Shown here piece after piece: positions 17,845 to 41,238 of a DNA stretch of 64,000 nucleotides. The notes beneath the pieces are model-generated. The model saw only the letters and a program-made list of their open reading frames with translations, was not told where the DNA came from and ran no database searches. This DNA comes from Synechococcus sp. C9 (GTDB lineage Bacteria; Cyanobacteriota; Cyanobacteriia; Gloeomargaritales; Gloeomargaritaceae). How positions within the stretch are numbered: the first letter of the stretch is position 1; each line of letters begins with the position of its first letter. The translations under genes were made by a program, and so were the position numbers. The stretch is taken from the NCBI RefSeq assembly GCF_022984075.1, contig NZ_JALAAD010000001.1:1468455-1532454 (forward strand). The letters run 5' to 3'.

Positions 17845-18288
17845 ATGATTCAATTTACCCTTAGTTCTAACCCTATCTGTTCCTCGGCAATGAGCCGTCT
17901 ATTAGTCAATAGTACCGTAGGAGCATTAGTAACTTTTGAAGGTTGGGTACGCAATCATAATGATGGAAAATCTGTATTGGGTTTAGAGTATGAGGTGTAT
18001 GAAATTCTCGCCCAAAAAGAAGGTGAAAAAATTCTCCAAGAAGCCCAAGCTAAATTTAATCTTTCGGGTGCCGTCGCTTGTCATCGTCATGGTTATTTAG
18101 ATATTGGTGAAATTGCTGTTTGGGTTGGCGCGACTGGGGTACATCGTGGCTCAGCGTTTGCCGGAACTCGTTATATTATTAATGGGATTAAAAGTCGTTT
18201 ACCGATTTGGAAGAAAGAATTTTATATTGGAGAAAAACCGCAGTGGATATTATGTTCACAAAATCATAGATTTTTCAGCGAGTCTTAA
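17845..18288 (+). CDS. moaE: Molybdopterin synthase catalytic subunit MoaE
   Basis: Predicted protein of 147 aa. It converts cPMP to molybdopterin using sulfur from MoaD. Family segments seen are GALVTFEGWVRNHNDGK, LEYEVYEILAQKEGEKI, CHRHGYLDIGE, VWVGATGVHRG and the lysine-rich LPIWKKEFY near the C-terminus. The start abuts the moaD stop (TAAATG). It is the last gene of the nitrate/Moco run; no hairpin terminator is visible, and a dispersed repeat begins at its stop codon. Confidence 0.92.
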   Translation: MIQFTLSSNPICSSAMSRLLVNSTVGALVTFEGWVRNHNDGKSVLGLEYEVYEILAQKEGEKILQEAQAKFNLSGAVACHRHGYLDIGEIAVWVGATGVHRGSAFAGTRYIINGIKSRLPIWKKEFYIGEKPQWILCSQNHRFFSES

Positions 18289-18386
18289 GGGCGCCTCTAT
18301 TCATTGATTTTTGTACTTACACAGCAGGTCTGATAGCGTAGCCATAAGTCCTATTCCTTCCTTGGAATTATCAGTAACCATTGTGA
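18286..18386. repeat. MITE-like dispersed repeat, family 2, left part
   Basis: Starts at the moaE stop codon with TAAGGGCGCCTCTATT and then CATTGATTTTT, and aligns over about 100 nt with the element at 24904-25021 (shared CTACAC/TTACAC, GTAGC, CCT-GGAAT blocks). The matching right inverted terminus was not found, so this is a truncated copy. The boundary coincides exactly with the gene end. Confidence 0.55.
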
Positions 18387-18429
18387 ATTATAGTGTGTTT
18401 CAAATGACTTCGCTCTCAGTGCTATCAAT

Positions 18430-18479
18430 GTACAGTCTTTTAAGTGCTTATAGAATACAGTTGAACCCCACTTGCCGTG
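18430..18479. repeat. Short dispersed repeat, family 3 (copy 1 of 2)
   Basis: About 50 nt with the cores TACAGTCTTTTAAGT, CTTAT and ATACAGTTG, then CCACTT-CCGT. It matches 54645-54694 with a few substitutions. The function is unknown; it may be part of a longer decayed mobile element. Confidence 0.5.
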
Positions 18480-18597
18480 AGTCAATTATTATTCTGAGCC
18501 TTTAGAATGAAGGAGGTTTTTTGTATCCTTTAATTGATAAATAGACTGTAACCATCTGGTTGACATTTGCGGGTGACTTCTTTAACTTCAATTAAAC

Positions 18598-23279: not shown

Positions 23280-24905
23280 GTGAAACTCCTACTTTTTTTA
23301 GTACAGACCTCCGGGTGGATGGTCGGTTTGGCAATTATCACCGGGTTTCTCAGCGGCGGGAGCAGTGCCGGTTTGATTGCCCTGATCAGCCGTGCCCTAG
23401 TCGAAGGGGTCACCCCCTTGGTCATCCTTGCTTTTATCGGTTTAGCCGGAATTGCCCTCGCCACCAGCATTATTTCCCAGGTGATGCTGATTCGCCTGTC
23501 CCAGCGAGCGGTTTTTGACCTCCGCCTCCATTTGAGCCGCCAAATTCTCCGTGCTGAACTCACCCATCTGGAGCAACTGGGCACCCCCCGCCTCCTGGCG
23601 ACCCTGACCGAGGATGTGCAAGCCGTCGCCAATGCGGTTTTTGCCATCCCTTTTTTGTGCATTGATGCCGCCATTGTCCTGGGCAGTCTCGTGTACATTA
23701 CTTGGCTCTCGTGGCAGGTTTTATTCATGGTGGTGGGGTTAACCACCGTTGCGATTGGCAGTTGTCAATTTTTTACCCATTTGGGCAGTCAATCCCTCGC
23801 CCGTGCCCGGGAAAAACAGGATCATTTATTCCAGGATTTCCAAGGGCTAACCCAAGGGATCAAAGAACTTAAACTTCATGCCCAAAAACAACAGGTATTT
23901 TTGCAAGAGCACTTGATGGTTCATGCCCAGGAATTTCGCCGCCATACGATCACCGGCTTAACCTATTTCGCCAGCACCTCCAGTTTGGGAAAACTAATTT
24001 TCTTTTTCGCCATCGGTTTTGTACTCTTTAGTCTGCCAAAGCTCATTACCCTCAACCCCCAAACCCTCTCCGGCTATGTGTTAATCTTCACCTATTTAAT
24101 GCTCCCAATGGAGAATTTGGTGAACAATTTACCCACCCTCAGTCGGGCAGGTGTCGCCCTAGAAAAAATCACCTCCTTGGGTTTATCCCTCTCCGGTTCT
24201 AGTGAATTGGAAACCGTAGCACAGCCGCTCCGACAATCATGGCAAAAACTGGAATTGCGGGAAGTCGTACATCAGTATCCATCCTCTCAAGATGACCAAC
24301 CGTTCTGTTTTGGTCCTGTGAGTTTAACGATTGTGCCCGGTGAAATTGTCATGATTATTGGCGGCAATGGCAGTGGCAAATCCACCCTGGCGAAGTTAAT
24401 TACGGGTTTATATACTCCCAAATCTGGGGCAATTTATTTTGACAATACCCTGATTGATGCCCAAAACCGCCATTGGTATCGCCAACATTTTGCCGTGGTT
24501 TTTTCTGATTTTTATTTATTTGAAAGTCTGTTGGGTTTGGAAGCGGATCAAGAGCTGGTTTATCAATACCTCAAACAACTACAAATCGAGCATAAAGTTA
24601 CGATTAAAAACGGGCAATTTTCCACCACCGCCCTCTCCCAAGGACAACGGAAACGCCTGGGTTTACTGATTGCCTATTTGGAAAACCGCCCCATCTATCT
24701 TTTTGACGAATGGGCTGCCGACCAAGACCCCCGGTTCAAGGAGTTTTTTTATACGGAATTTCTACCCAATTTGCGGGCACAGGGAAAAACAGTTTTAGTG
24801 ATTAGTCATGATGACCATTATTTTCATATTGCCGACCATTTGATTAAGCTAGATTATGGACGAATTGAGTATGATAAATATGTGGATACACCGGTAGGAA
24901 TTTAG
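23280..24905 (+). CDS. Cyclic-peptide-type ABC exporter (fused membrane and ATPase domains)
   Basis: Predicted protein of 541 aa with a GTG start; an upstream ATG frame is closed by TAG. Residues 1-310 hold six membrane helices, and from about 345 on there is an ABC ATPase: GGNGSGKST (Walker A), a degenerate signature LSQGQRKRLGL, Walker B IYLFDEWAAD and switch HDD. The NGSGKST loop, SQGQRKRL and DEWAADQDP are hallmarks of the SyrD/PvdE-like exporters of non-ribosomal or cyclic peptides and siderophores. No peptide synthetase or precursor gene is next to it, so its substrate is unknown. Its stop codon lies in a dispersed repeat. Confidence 0.88.
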   Translation: MKLLLFLVQTSGWMVGLAIITGFLSGGSSAGLIALISRALVEGVTPLVILAFIGLAGIALATSIISQVMLIRLSQRAVFDLRLHLSRQILRAELTHLEQLGTPRLLATLTEDVQAVANAVFAIPFLCIDAAIVLGSLVYITWLSWQVLFMVVGLTTVAIGSCQFFTHLGSQSLARAREKQDHLFQDFQGLTQGIKELKLHAQKQQVFLQEHLMVHAQEFRRHTITGLTYFASTSSLGKLIFFFAIGFVLFSLPKLITLNPQTLSGYVLIFTYLMLPMENLVNNLPTLSRAGVALEKITSLGLSLSGSSELETVAQPLRQSWQKLELREVVHQYPSSQDDQPFCFGPVSLTIVPGEIVMIIGGNGSGKSTLAKLITGLYTPKSGAIYFDNTLIDAQNRHWYRQHFAVVFSDFYLFESLLGLEADQELVYQYLKQLQIEHKVTIKNGQFSTTALSQGQRKRLGLLIAYLENRPIYLFDEWAADQDPRFKEFFYTEFLPNLRAQGKTVLVISHDDHYFHIADHLIKLDYGRIEYDKYVDTPVGI

Positions 24906-25021
24906 GGATGCCTCTGTTTACTGATTTTTATAGCTACACGATAGGTATAGTAGGGTAGCGATGAGTACATTGACCTGGGAATATCCTCAATGGCTGTAAA
25001 TCAATAGAGGAGAGGTGCCCT
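24904..25021. repeat. MITE-like dispersed repeat, family 2, near-complete copy
   Basis: About 118 nt with imperfect inverted ends: AGGGATGCCTCTGTTTACTG at the left and TAAATCAATAGAGGAGAGGT at the right, followed by GCCCT. The left end starts within the stop codon (TAG, 24903-24905) of the ABC exporter. The right end is 82 nt before the methyltransferase gene, so it separates GC-rich core DNA from the AT-rich restriction-modification pair. Confidence 0.7.
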
Positions 25022-25103
25022 TGAATCTAAATTTTAGGAGGTTTATATTATAAGAAGATAATAGTAGCAAAATGAACCCATACAATCTACTTCAAACCCT
25101 AGG

Positions 25104-26249
25104 ATGAAAAAGATAACCTACCGCTTAGGTGAATTATTTTGTGGGGCAGGAGGTCTCGCTTTAGGTGCAAAATCTGCTCATATATTAAATCATGAATTTG
25201 ATTGTTCAATTTCTCATGTATGGGCTACGGATTATGATATGTCAGCCTGTGAGACATACCGCCGTAACATCTGTCCAGACAATCCTGAGTCTGTTATCTG
25301 TTGTGATATTAGGCAATTAAGTTTTGAAAAATTACAGAGTATTTCACCAATTGATGGATTAGCATTTGGCTTCCCATGTAACGATTTTAGTATAGTAGGT
25401 GAACAACAAGGTATTAATGGGACGTATGGACCACTTTATAAATATGGCGTAACAGCATTAAACTTTTTCAATCCCCAATGGTTCCTGGCTGAAAATGTAA
25501 GCGGTCTTAAAAATTCCAATGATGGTCGAGCTTTTGATATAATCTTAGAAGAATTAAGAAATGCTGGTGATGGTTATGAAATCACTCCTCATTTGTATAA
25601 ATTTGAATGTTATGGTATTCCGCAGGCAAGGCATAGAATTATTATTGTTGGAATCAGAAAAGATTTAGATAAAATTTTTAGAGTTCCTTCGCCAGAACCA
25701 TATAAAAATGTGGATGTATCCTGTCGAAAAGCGATAGAGAATCCACCAATTCCACGTTTTGCATACAATCATGAATTTACAAAGCAATCTCAAGTTGTGA
25801 TTGAACGACTCAAGTACATTAAACCCGGTGAAAATGCTTTTACTGCCAAGATTCCCACTCAGCTACAACTTAATGTTCGTGGTGCAAAAATCAGTCAAAT
25901 ATACAAGCGCCTTGACCCGACCAAACCAGCTTACACGATAACCGGGAGTGGTGGTGGCGGCACCCATGTTTATCACTGGTCGGAAAACCGTTCATTAACT
26001 AATAGGGAAAGGGCTCGATTGCAGACTTTTCCTGATAATTTTATCTTCTATGGTTCTAAAGAAAGCGTCAGAAAACAAATTGGTATGGCGGTTCCCCCAA
26101 GGGCGGCTGAAATTGTATTCAATGCACTTTTATCTAGTTTATTAGATATTCAGTATCCATTTATACCTTCAAATATAATAGCGGTTAAAAGTCTTTTTGA
26201 AGGTACACACTATACATTCAATGAAAGTAATGGAGAATATCAAGTATGA
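25104..26249 (+). CDS. DNA (cytosine-5-)-methyltransferase of a restriction-modification pair
   Basis: Predicted protein of 381 aa. The C5-methylase motifs are in order: I LFCGAGGLALG (residues 11-21), IV GFPCNDFS with catalytic Cys92, VI ENV with Glu130, VIII QARHRIIIVG near 174, a target-recognition region around 185-290, IX RLDPTKPAYTI and X GMAVPPRAAEIV. Motif IV reads PCN, where most family members have PCQ. The gene is AT-rich against its GC-rich flanks and is preceded by a repeat, which suggests recent acquisition. The stop overlaps the next gene (ATGA). The recognition sequence cannot be deduced. Confidence 0.92.
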   Translation: MKKITYRLGELFCGAGGLALGAKSAHILNHEFDCSISHVWATDYDMSACETYRRNICPDNPESVICCDIRQLSFEKLQSISPIDGLAFGFPCNDFSIVGEQQGINGTYGPLYKYGVTALNFFNPQWFLAENVSGLKNSNDGRAFDIILEELRNAGDGYEITPHLYKFECYGIPQARHRIIIVGIRKDLDKIFRVPSPEPYKNVDVSCRKAIENPPIPRFAYNHEFTKQSQVVIERLKYIKPGENAFTAKIPTQLQLNVRGAKISQIYKRLDPTKPAYTITGSGGGGTHVYHWSENRSLTNRERARLQTFPDNFIFYGSKESVRKQIGMAVPPRAAEIVFNALLSSLLDIQYPFIPSNIIAVKSLFEGTHYTFNESNGEYQV

Positions 26250-27301
26250 ATAAAAACGAACAGGAAATTTTTAAATTTAGAGTCAATCAAATTAAAGAGT
26301 ATTTAGCTCGACAAATTTCTGTCGACAATGCAGTTGAACTAGCAAAACAAATTGTAACAGGTGCAGAGGGGGGGAATGAGTTTGGTAAAAATAATTTTGA
26401 TTCTTGGTTAAGTGACCGTTTTATCCCTCAATTAGTCTGGCTTTCAAGTGATGATTATACCAGGGGAATTACACGAGCATTACCTCAAGCTTTACGATTC
26501 ACAGGTTCAGATTTTGGTAGTGCTAAACAGAGAGATTTTGGACAATTATGGATGGATACGACCAGAGGTTTATTAGGTGAAATAGCGGTTCAAAAATTCT
26601 TTAAAGACAAACTCAATACAGAGATAGAGCTGGATACTAGCATTGATCAGAATTTAGATGATTACATTACCACTGACATAAAGTTTGTCAAAGAATCCTC
26701 TGGTGCCTATCGCAATGCAAGAATCAATACCAGTATTAAAACAGGTAAGTTTAATGCCCGTTGGTTGGATGAATATAGTGCAACTAAAATTAACAAAATC
26801 GATGTTTTTATTTTTGTCCGATTAGGAATGCCAAAAGAACATTTTATTGCTTATCTCAAAAATATAAGTTTTTTACGAGATAAACTAATTCCCAGAGCAA
26901 TAGAGATTGGTGAAATTACAAATGAGCTGAGTTTAGGATTGTGGAATGCAATTCCAAATTTTGAACTCATTCCTGCCTATGTAGTCGGATTCTTAGCTAA
27001 GCAAAATTTACAACAGCCTATTCATTCGATTACCTTAGAAATCAAAGGAAAACCAGATTACCAACGAGGAGATACTACAAAAGATACCAGAAAAATCTAC
27101 ATCAAAAAAGGCATAGGTATATTTACTAAAAACAATGTATGTGCTCGACCAGAGTTCCAGCAACTTAATGTACCAGACAGTTTACCAATTTTAATTGCTG
27201 GTATTGAAAAACAGATTGATAACAAAGAACATTTCTACGCCAATACCGGCTCTTTTGATTATGGGATGGAAAAATGGCAATGCTTTGCACATATATTGTA
27301 A
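26246..27301 (+). CDS. Putative type II restriction endonuclease partner of the methylase
   Basis: Predicted protein of 351 aa with no family I can name with certainty. The call rests on tight coupling to the methylase (4-nt overlap), similar AT-rich composition and a plausible PD-(D/E)XK core: ...DDYITTDIKFV (Asp, spacer, Asp-x-Lys, near residues 138-148), followed by INTSIKTGKFNARWLD, a basic/aromatic segment often seen after the core strand in such enzymes. An upstream glutamate (GLLGEIAVQKFF) could be the extra acidic residue. It could also be a stability factor or another methylase-linked protein. Confidence 0.65.
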   Translation: MNKNEQEIFKFRVNQIKEYLARQISVDNAVELAKQIVTGAEGGNEFGKNNFDSWLSDRFIPQLVWLSSDDYTRGITRALPQALRFTGSDFGSAKQRDFGQLWMDTTRGLLGEIAVQKFFKDKLNTEIELDTSIDQNLDDYITTDIKFVKESSGAYRNARINTSIKTGKFNARWLDEYSATKINKIDVFIFVRLGMPKEHFIAYLKNISFLRDKLIPRAIEIGEITNELSLGLWNAIPNFELIPAYVVGFLAKQNLQQPIHSITLEIKGKPDYQRGDTTKDTRKIYIKKGIGIFTKNNVCARPEFQQLNVPDSLPILIAGIEKQIDNKEHFYANTGSFDYGMEKWQCFAHIL

Positions 27302-30646: not shown

Positions 30647-31240
30647 ATGCAAACGGCGATGCCCATTTTCATCCCGCCTACATTACGTTGTACTGAAGAA
30701 CAGTTCAGGGAATTGGTGAAATTCAATCCCGATTTGCGCTGGGAATTAACTGCTCAAGGGGAAGTGATTGTCATGGCACCAACGGGGAGTGAAACGGGGA
30801 ATTATAACTTTGAATTAAATACGGATTTAGGAACTTGGAACCGTCAGCAAAAAATGGGGAAAGCCTTTGATTCCTCAGCAGGGTTTCGCTTACCGAATGG
30901 GGCGATTCGTTCTCCTGATTTAGCCTGGATTGCTCAGGAACGTTGGGAACAGTTATCTCCTGAACAGCGGCGACAATTTGCCCCAATTTGCCCTGATTTT
31001 GTCCTGGAATTAGTCTCCCCTGCGGATGATTTAGCCACTGTGCAAGCTAAGATGCAGGAGTATTTGAAAAATGGCTGTCGGTTGGGTTGGTTGGTCAATC
31101 CTGAAACCCGCAGTGTTACGATTTATCGCCCTAATGTTGCCCCTGAAATTGTCACTTTTGATGTGGTTCTTTCTGGGGAAGATGTTTTACCGGGGTTTAC
31201 TGTGGATTTACGGCACATTTTTGGAAGTGATGAACTGTAG
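30647..31240 (+). CDS. Uma2-family (DUF820) endonuclease-like protein
   Basis: Predicted protein of 197 aa. The PD-(D/E)XK-like core of the family is visible: RWELTAQGEVIVMAPTG, SPDLAWI and PDFVLELVSPAD, then MQEYLKNGCRLGWLVNPE. These proteins are extremely numerous in cyanobacteria and often lie near transposable DNA; the biological function is not settled. The last codon is directly followed by a dispersed repeat that supplies the TAG stop. Confidence 0.88.
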   Translation: MQTAMPIFIPPTLRCTEEQFRELVKFNPDLRWELTAQGEVIVMAPTGSETGNYNFELNTDLGTWNRQQKMGKAFDSSAGFRLPNGAIRSPDLAWIAQERWEQLSPEQRRQFAPICPDFVLELVSPADDLATVQAKMQEYLKNGCRLGWLVNPETRSVTIYRPNVAPEIVTFDVVLSGEDVLPGFTVDLRHIFGSDEL

Positions 31241-31338
31241 GGCACCCCTATCAATTCCAAGTTAGTGGTCACAGGGACACCCCCGCCCTTGGTTCTGGGT
31301 AATTATTGATGATTGGTTCAAATAAATAGAGGTTCCCT
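31239..31338. repeat. MITE-like dispersed repeat, family 2/1 hybrid copy
   Basis: Inverted ends AGGGCACCCCTATCAATT and AATAAATAGAGGTTCCCT match the family 2 termini. The inside holds CCCCCGCCCTTGGTTCTGG, resembling the core of family 1 (CCGTACTTGGTTCTGG). The left end lies inside the stop codon of the Uma2 gene (31238-31240); the right end is 20 nt from the end of the leftward dihydroorotase-like gene. Confidence 0.6.
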
Positions 31339-31357
31339 GTTTTTGAAATCGCTAACG

Positions 31358-39801: not shown

Positions 39802-40944
39802 ATGGCTTACAAAGCAATGATTTTAGCCGCCGGGAAAGGCACCCGGGTACGCCCAATTACCTACACCATTCCCAAGCCCATGATTCCGATTTTGGAACGC
39901 CCGGTGATGGAATTTTTAGTGGATTTATTGCGGCGGCATGGCATCACCCAAATCATGGTGAATGTGAGTCATTTGGCACATCAAATTGAAAATTATTTCC
40001 GGGATGGGCAACGGTTTGGGGTACAGATTGCCTATTCCTTTGAGGGGCGGATTGTTGAGGGGGAATTGATCGGCGAAGCCCTGGGTTCCGCCGGGGGGAT
40101 GAAACGGATTCAAGAATTTAATCCCTTTTTTGATGACACCTTTGTCGTGCTGTGTGGGGATGCGTTGATTGATTTAGATTTAACAGCGGCAATTCGTTGG
40201 CACCATCACCGGCAATCCCTGGCGACGATTATTACCAAATCCGTACCCCTAGAGGTAGTTTCCAATTATGGGGTGGTGGTCACGGATGAACATTATCGCA
40301 TTCGTTCCTTCCAGGAAAAACCCCGCCAGGAGGAAGCCCTCAGTACGCAAATCAATACGGGAATTTATATTTTTGAGCCGGAAATTTTTGAGTATATCCC
40401 CAGTGGAGAAGTATATGATTTGGGCAGTCAATTATTTCCCCGCCTGGTGGAATTAGGCGTACCTTTTTATGCCCTACCGATGCAATTTGAATGGATTGAT
40501 ATTGGGCAAGTCCCAGACTATTGGCGCACCGTCCAGATGGTTTTGCAAGGGCAAGTTCCCCATGTACCGATTCCGGGGCAACAAATTCGTCCGGGCATTT
40601 ATACGGGGTTGAATGTCGCCGCCGATTGGACAAAAATTCATGTGCAACCCCCGGTTTACATTGGGGGGATGACCCGCATTGAACCCGGTGTGACCATTAT
40701 TGGTCCAGCCATGATTGGTCCCAATTGCCGTTTGGGGCAAAATTCCTGTGTGGAACGCAGTATTATTTTTGAATATTCTCGCCTGGGAAACGGGGTGCAT
40801 TTGAAGGATAAACTGGTATTTGGGCGGTATTGTGTGGACAAAAGCGGGGCAACCATTGATTTACAAAAAGCGGCTTTGGATTGGCTGATTACCGATGCTC
40901 GTTGCGAAGTACCGCCGGGGGTGGGGACAGGAACGCATTTATAG
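39802..40944 (+). CDS. Sugar-phosphate nucleotidyltransferase (mannose-1-P guanylyltransferase-like)
   Basis: Predicted protein of 380 aa from MAYKAMILAAGKGTRVRPIT. Residues 1-235 are the nucleotidyltransferase fold: GKGTRVRP, PKPMIPI, GDALIDLDL, and IDIGQVPDYW. Residues about 255-350 look like a left-handed beta-helix (hexapeptide repeats, PPVYIGGMTRIEPGVTIIGP). The layout fits GDP-mannose or glucose-1-phosphate nucleotidyltransferases feeding surface polysaccharide; the base and sugar cannot be fixed. The stop codon (TAG) overlaps the start of the first repeat unit at 40940. Confidence 0.88.
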   Translation: MAYKAMILAAGKGTRVRPITYTIPKPMIPILERPVMEFLVDLLRRHGITQIMVNVSHLAHQIENYFRDGQRFGVQIAYSFEGRIVEGELIGEALGSAGGMKRIQEFNPFFDDTFVVLCGDALIDLDLTAAIRWHHHRQSLATIITKSVPLEVVSNYGVVVTDEHYRIRSFQEKPRQEEALSTQINTGIYIFEPEIFEYIPSGEVYDLGSQLFPRLVELGVPFYALPMQFEWIDIGQVPDYWRTVQMVLQGQVPHVPIPGQQIRPGIYTGLNVAADWTKIHVQPPVYIGGMTRIEPGVTIIGPAMIGPNCRLGQNSCVERSIIFEYSRLGNGVHLKDKLVFGRYCVDKSGATIDLQKAALDWLITDARCEVPPGVGTGTHL

Positions 40945-41238
40945 CAATCCCAAATGAGAATAGAATAGGGGTCGCAGGGGCACCGCCCCCGTATTTGGTT
41001 CTGAAAACTTTTTGTTTATAAATCAAGTAGGATTGGTATATAGCAATCCCAAATGAGAATGGAATAGGGGTCGCAGGGGCACCGCCCCCGTACTTGGTTC
41101 TGGAAACTTCTTGTTTATAAATCAAGTAGGATTGGTATATAGCAATCCCAAATGAGAATGGAATAGGGGTCGCAGGGGCACCGCCCCCGTACTTGGTTCT
41201 GGAAACTTTTTGTTTATAAATCAAGTGGAATTGCTATA
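40940..41238. repeat. Three tandem copies of the family 1 MITE-like repeat (99-101 bp each)
   Basis: Units start at 40940, 41039 and 41138, each beginning TATAGCAATCCCAAATGAGA and containing AGGGGCACCGCCCCCGTA and TTTATAAATCAAGT. The units differ by only a few bases, so the amplification is recent. The outer ends form inverted repeats (TATAGCAATCCC against GGAATTGCTATA). The core is a GC-rich hairpin (GGGGC-ACC-GCCCC). No spacers of different sequence separate the units, so this is not a CRISPR array. The stop codon of the preceding gene overlaps the first unit, and TATAAAAT at the far end may serve as a -10 for argS. Confidence 0.9.

Follow-up and report, generated by a model that had tools for sequence, protein, structure and literature searches.

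Stop-codon junctions of a cyanobacterial MITE family are probably explained by a TTAA-like IS5-type target and selection

In the window (the whole 64,000-nucleotide stretch of Synechococcus sp. C9 DNA analyzed here) short repeats begin exactly on the stop codons of three genes. We found that these repeats, called family 2, are non-autonomous transposons (MITEs) that are non-coding and present in high copy, and we consider it very probable that IS5-mobilized MITEs with a TTAA-like target, together with selection, explain the stop-codon junctions. In the mechanism we propose, an IS5-family transposase would move the MITEs in trans with duplication of a 4-bp A+T-rich target (consensus TTAA). Targets such as TTAA, TTAG, ATAA, and TTTA would frequently include a stop codon or lie next to one, and insertions deeper inside genes would be purged by selection. 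Hence, the stop codon would be the most gene-ward place at which an insertion survives. The reading frame would be unharmed: a target containing TAA, TAG, or TGA would remain upstream of the element and, upon a cut after TA, the invariant first G of the element would make TAG. The transposase would not have to recognize stop codons or the ends of genes. The directly observed components of this proposal are the ends, the duplication, the empty sites, the autonomous relative, and the enrichment numbers. Stop codons can be occupied exactly by a transposon that has a TTAA-like target but does not recognize stops, and caution is warranted when interpreting junctions at gene ends. The lineage that hosts this MITE family is generally placed nearest to plastids among the cyanobacteria.

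The genome of the window (2.96 Mb; G000, below C9) was compared with that of its sister species, Gloeomargaritales cyanobacterium VI4D9 (OV696605.1, 3,162,419 bp; G002, below VI4D9), the closest relative compared. Other genomes are given by number.

Three junctions at stop codons

Direct reading of the sequence and its open reading frames confirmed the preliminary description of the window, in which elements were said to start within the stop codons of moaE, an ABC exporter gene, and a Uma2-family gene (Table 1). Although the junctions are real, the element start given there, (T)AGGG, includes one or two leading bases that are target: the element proper begins at GGG and the TA or TAA ahead of it is target DNA. 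At the ABC gene the third base of the TAG stop is the first G of the MITE (24905). The loose motif proposed for these elements, (T)AGGG-x2-(G/C)CC, fared less well, with 15 matches in the window versus 25 expected by chance, whereas AGGGCACCTCTAT exceeds its control genome-wide.

Table 1 Genes, targets, and MITEs at the three junctions (window coordinates)
Feature	Position	Strand	Details
moaE (molybdopterin synthase large subunit)	17845..18288	+	stop TAA 18286-18288; ORF; Pfam MoaE 6.4e-31
4-bp target TTAA, includes moaE stop	18285..18288	+	sequence; consensus target TTAA
Family-2 MITE at moaE	18289..18407 (approximate)	+	left end GGGCGCCTCTAT at 18289; right end degenerate
Cyclic-peptide-export-type ABC transporter	23280..24905	+	stop TAG 24903-24905; ORF; TIGR01194 1.1e-139
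ABC target, left copy TTTA	24901..24904	+	right copy TTGA at 25021-25024
Family-2 MITE at ABC exporter, 116 bp	24905..25020	+	right end GGGCACCTCT on - strand at 25020
Uma2-family gene	30647..31240	+	stop TAG 31238-31240; ORF; Pfam Uma2 6.5e-45
Uma2 target, left copy TGTA	31236..31239	+	right copy TGTT at 31338-31341
Family-2 MITE at Uma2, 98 bp	31240..31337	+	both inverted ends recognizable

The three copies are relatives rather than near-identical sequences. Those at moaE and the ABC gene have one interior (TTGATTTTTGTACTTACAC in the moaE MITE is common to related copies and the ABC copy at 24905 is similar), and that at Uma2 has another. Only these three copies were recognized in the window and all three lie on stop codons, a proportion unrepresentative of the 2.4-Mb sample analyzed below (15 of ~396). 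A nucleotide search with the 24.9-kb (ABC) copy gave only weak matches owing to divergence of the copies, and the element ends were used as the query instead. For none of the three window copies was an empty site found in the relatives examined. The VI4D9 orthologue of the ABC gene has its own element copy 11 bp past its TGA, and the best-matching Uma2 copies in VI4D9 and G004 have different downstream neighbors. The C-terminus encoded by moaE differs from those of the VI4D9 and G004 orthologues, and comparison of these sequences suggests that part of the moaE end may have been altered.

At the moaE gene end VI4D9 has a decayed IS and the window has a MITE; the former is a decayed autonomous IS5-type copy (G002:1859316-1861063) shortly downstream of the VI4D9 moaE orthologue. 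Right after the moaE copy the window contains a third repeat type (ACAGTCTTTTAAGTG...GTATCCTTTAATTGATAAATAGACTGT, 18440-18552), and similar sequence also follows the VI4D9 moaE and ABC orthologues.

Family-2 repeats are MITEs

Family-2 repeats are MITEs in that they are short, lack a transposase, have inverted ends and a duplication of fixed length, occur in high copy, have counterparts in related DNA that are empty sites, and share their ends with an IS. The inverted ends (GGGCACCTCTAT/ATAGAGGTGCCC) are bordered by a 4-bp target duplication of consensus TTAA, the paired ends face each other, and complete copies are mostly 75-150 bp. Across the whole C9 genome the end motif AGGGCACCTCTAT gave 431 matches at ≤2 mismatches and 227 at ≤1 mismatch, versus 51 and 2, respectively, for the reversed motif that served as the control for genome-wide end counts. 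At ≤1 mismatch 160-340 ends were found in VI4D9, G004, and G005, where the family is abundant; it is also present in G007 and G015, and the end-motif search found it absent from G001, G003, and G006.

Exact 4-bp duplications flank 37 of the 134 complete copies taken from sampled stretches, versus 6.3 in shuffles (maximum 14). For the same copies lengths of 5-9 bp gave 0-1 exact duplications, and no peak besides 4 bp was seen. Duplications of TA, of 3 bp, and of 8-9 bp were considered and only 4 bp fits. The target profile is T68 T52 A53 A62 (%). Several interior types exist, and the combination of ends varies from copy to copy.

The window also contains another repeat family (TATAGCAATCC...GGATTGCTATA), present as three head-to-tail copies of 99 bp each that are 94-96% identical (40940-41236). 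Its interior module GGTCGCAGGGGCACCGCCCCCG is common to some family-2 copies.

An IS5-family relative with the MITE ends

VI4D9 contains 1243-bp elements that have the MITE ends (GGGCACCTCTATTTATT), 4-bp duplications (some being TTAA), and a gene for a 343-residue transposase. The transposase is of the IS5 family (NF033581, 270.5 bits with a cut-off of 140; Pfam DDE_Tnp_1 plus DUF772), and the full-length element is IS5-like in its NF033581-type transposase, its inverted ends starting with GGG, and its 4-bp duplications. Exact duplications flank seven of eight intact copies (AAAA, AAAT, TCAA, TTAT, CCCT, and TTAA twice), one of which adjoins the stop codon of a 448-residue frame. The duplication length is thus 4 bp and TTAA fits YTAR, yet AAAA, TTAT, and CCCT occur too. 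From these shared features we infer that the MITEs would be moved in trans by the transposase of the 1243-bp IS.

About 20 full-length IS copies are present in VI4D9 and G005 has a remnant only. Searches of C9 and G004 gave no match to an intact transposase of the VI4D9 type; C9 holds short relics of the IS ends. In G005, G007, and G015 the MITE ends are abundant (57-218) and the VI4D9 transposase is absent or present only as a remnant. Hence, the MITEs of these three genomes must have been spread by another or a lost transposase.

Escherichia coli IS5 also makes a 4-bp duplication, with consensus C(A/T)A(G/A), and favors intergenic A+T-rich DNA (PMC11677980). In contrast, the target consensus here is TTAA, the window copies lack a transposase, and no intact IS of this type was found in C9. 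The available text on the bacterial MITEs RUP, Correia, MITEAba12, and Nezha describes short, non-coding elements with the ends and duplication length of an IS that are of high copy and mostly intergenic (PMC6382973, PMC2229807, PMC10969869). Family 2 resembles these, as there described, in size, inverted ends, copy number, and intergenic location, but differs in sequence, host, and parent IS. Its overlap with stop codons, which the target site explains quantitatively, is not reported for those four families in the same text.

The stop-codon excess matches a general 3′ excess

The statistics on stop codons are from a 2.4-Mb sample composed of 1.6 of the 2.96 Mb of C9 (54%) and 0.8 Mb of VI4D9 (25%), with gene ends taken from an ad hoc caller (codon-pair model). 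Copies were detected by ≤3 mismatches in the 12-base end, a threshold that decayed copies escape; one such is the ABC left end, which has a 1-base insertion in the repeat and is outside the ~396 counted ends. For target-weighted expectations each site was given a weight from the 4-bp target profile.

Called genes contained only 12 of the 408 ends versus 77% expected upon target weighting, and six of the 12 were the IS transposase itself, several others were chance matches, and few were real-looking copies. Selection against insertion inside genes is strongly supported, and we infer purifying selection as the cause. Fifteen of the 396 non-genic ends were on a stop codon, either at offset 0 (stop just before GGG) or at offset -1 (TA|G). 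If ends were spread uniformly over non-coding DNA 1.7 would be expected (9-fold excess), and thus the preference for stop codons first put forward held against a naive null. It was mostly lost against the target-weighted expectation of 6.1 (2.5-fold, P = 0.0016), and the remainder was accounted for by adding the general 3′ bias (14.6 expected, P = 0.49): stops were not hit more often than equal 4-mers in similar positions. Ends 5-25 bp downstream of stops were 2.7-fold above the target-weighted expectation and those at 26-50 bp were 2.0-fold above it, whereas ends close upstream of gene starts were depleted. As the excess at stops equals the general 3′ excess (2.5-fold versus 2.7-fold), no separate targeting of stop codons is needed. 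Close to the stop the profile is somewhat uneven, because positions 1-4 bp past the stop were not enriched (three seen, 4.1 expected upon target weighting, and ~10 with the 3′ bias). The excess at stop codons is real, and two things add up to it: the resemblance of the target to a stop and a bias toward survival at gene ends in general.

The same counts bear on the possibility that gene ends or stop codons (e.g., terminator DNA or ribosome-free 3′ DNA) are true destinations toward which the transposase is steered, either on its own or by a bound host factor. The two- to threefold enrichment of copies 5-50 bp downstream of genes and the ninefold excess over uniform at stops would fit steering, as would the over-representation of convergent gene pairs (104 ends versus 75 expected) and under-representation of divergent pairs (85 versus 110). 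However, given the TTAA preference the excess at stops is no larger than that at neighboring 3′ positions, and the depletion upstream of genes fits promoter selection equally well. We consider steering very unlikely.

Two insertions entered pre-existing stop codons

The proposal that a TTAA-like target already holds the stop codon can be compared with empty sites. In VI4D9 the copy at G002:794351 is flanked by duplicated TTAG (CGTCTTAG, element, TTAGGTTAATC), and the uninterrupted C9 orthologue (GAGTCTTAGGTTAATC) ends in an identical TAG stop. The copy at G002:774610 has a TTTA duplication and contributes its first G to the TAG stop; the C9 orthologue reads GCGTTTTAATTAG and has a natural TAA stop at the same codon. 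Both VI4D9 insertions entered a pre-existing stop and left the protein unchanged, and these are the only two empty sites found for copies at offset 0 or -1. Clean empty sites away from stops were found for G002_400:267956 (TATA) and G000_2300000:50076 (TTTA). Reconstruction of the ABC site by removal of the element and one target copy gave GGA ATT TAA, which restores a stop, whereas that of Uma2, the duplication of which is imperfect, gave none (TGTA^TTT).

The preliminary description had also suggested that the elements bring their own stop. This applies at offset -1 to the extent that the G of the element completes TAG, but the original stop is proven to be TAA in one case and the ABC (TAA) and G000:2395902 (TAG) sites reconstruct to stops; at offset 0 the stop pre-existed in the target. 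A stronger version would have insertions occur anywhere in the last codons, with the survivors being those in which the element at once builds an in-frame stop. Three called VI4D9 genes run 15-33 bp into a copy, and their stop is within the element. One of these copies, 1844571, took the place of the last codons of the gene that it ends, the C9 orthologue of which runs past the junction. Hence, element-supplied stops exist, but as a minority. The divergent moaE C-terminus could be read in the same manner. However, at offset 0 the stop is entirely target DNA, the two empty sites prove that the stop pre-existed, and no C9 copy has a stop further inside the element. Thus, as the general explanation of the junctions, stop building by the element seems very unlikely.

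Retention of copies at gene ends as transcription terminators or mRNA 3′ structures is the least probable reading, since although the RNA fold of the ABC copy is better than those of shuffled sequences (z -2.3), the other two window copies do not (z 0.2 and 0.3), so that no general structure was found among the three, and interiors vary between copies.

Element-bearing intergenic regions and gene order

Many aligned blocks of C9 and VI4D9 show 92-96% identity, yet the order of genes has been scrambled between them. VI4D9 retains 75 of 132 testable adjacencies (57%) that span C9 intergenic regions of 150-800 bp lacking a family-2 element, versus 4 of 59 (7%) for regions having one (Fisher P = 6e-12). 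Family-2 elements, along with those of the other repeat family, sit at nearly all places where gene order breaks between the two species. When a gene flank has an element in C9, the orthologous VI4D9 flank has one in 36 of 67 cases, versus 23 of 257 otherwise, and the neighbor differs at 32 of the 36 flanks that have an element in both genomes. Between the two genomes a few copies agree to the base at the insertion boundary but differ in interior from just inside the end (e.g., G000_500000 gene 222 and G002_400 gene 159), as expected if copies had recombined. All three window copies are at breakpoints, with moaE and the gene that follows it mapping to different places in VI4D9.

Dispersed MITEs could be the main engine of Gloeomargarita gene-order scrambling, with repeat recombination or transposase breakage occurring almost only at element-bearing intergenic regions and the stop-codon junctions marking block boundaries with switched partners. 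We put this forward tentatively, as somewhat short of an even chance. A similar pattern is seen with the window's other repeat family (4 of 24 adjacencies kept) and exact duplications are present in 16 of the 60 copies at broken adjacencies; hence, causation by the elements is not separated from permissiveness of the regions. According to the available text of an earlier study, IS copies occupy the endpoints of large-scale rearrangements, sometimes without matching duplications (mBio 2024, PMC11708052). The family-2 elements likewise sit at rearrangement junctions but, unlike the cases described in that text, they do so between two species and at almost every element-bearing intergenic region. 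Copies that mark most breakpoints between two species make repeat-driven genome scrambling testable in the Gloeomargarita lineage.

The ABC and Uma2 copies bound a 6-kb block that contains a type II restriction-modification pair; no orthologue of this block turned up in the VI4D9 sample. In the pair a cytosine-5 methyltransferase gene precedes that of a type II restriction enzyme (25104-27298; PADLOC REase_II 2.7e-44), and the methyltransferase has relatives of only 58-60% identity elsewhere in the genus.
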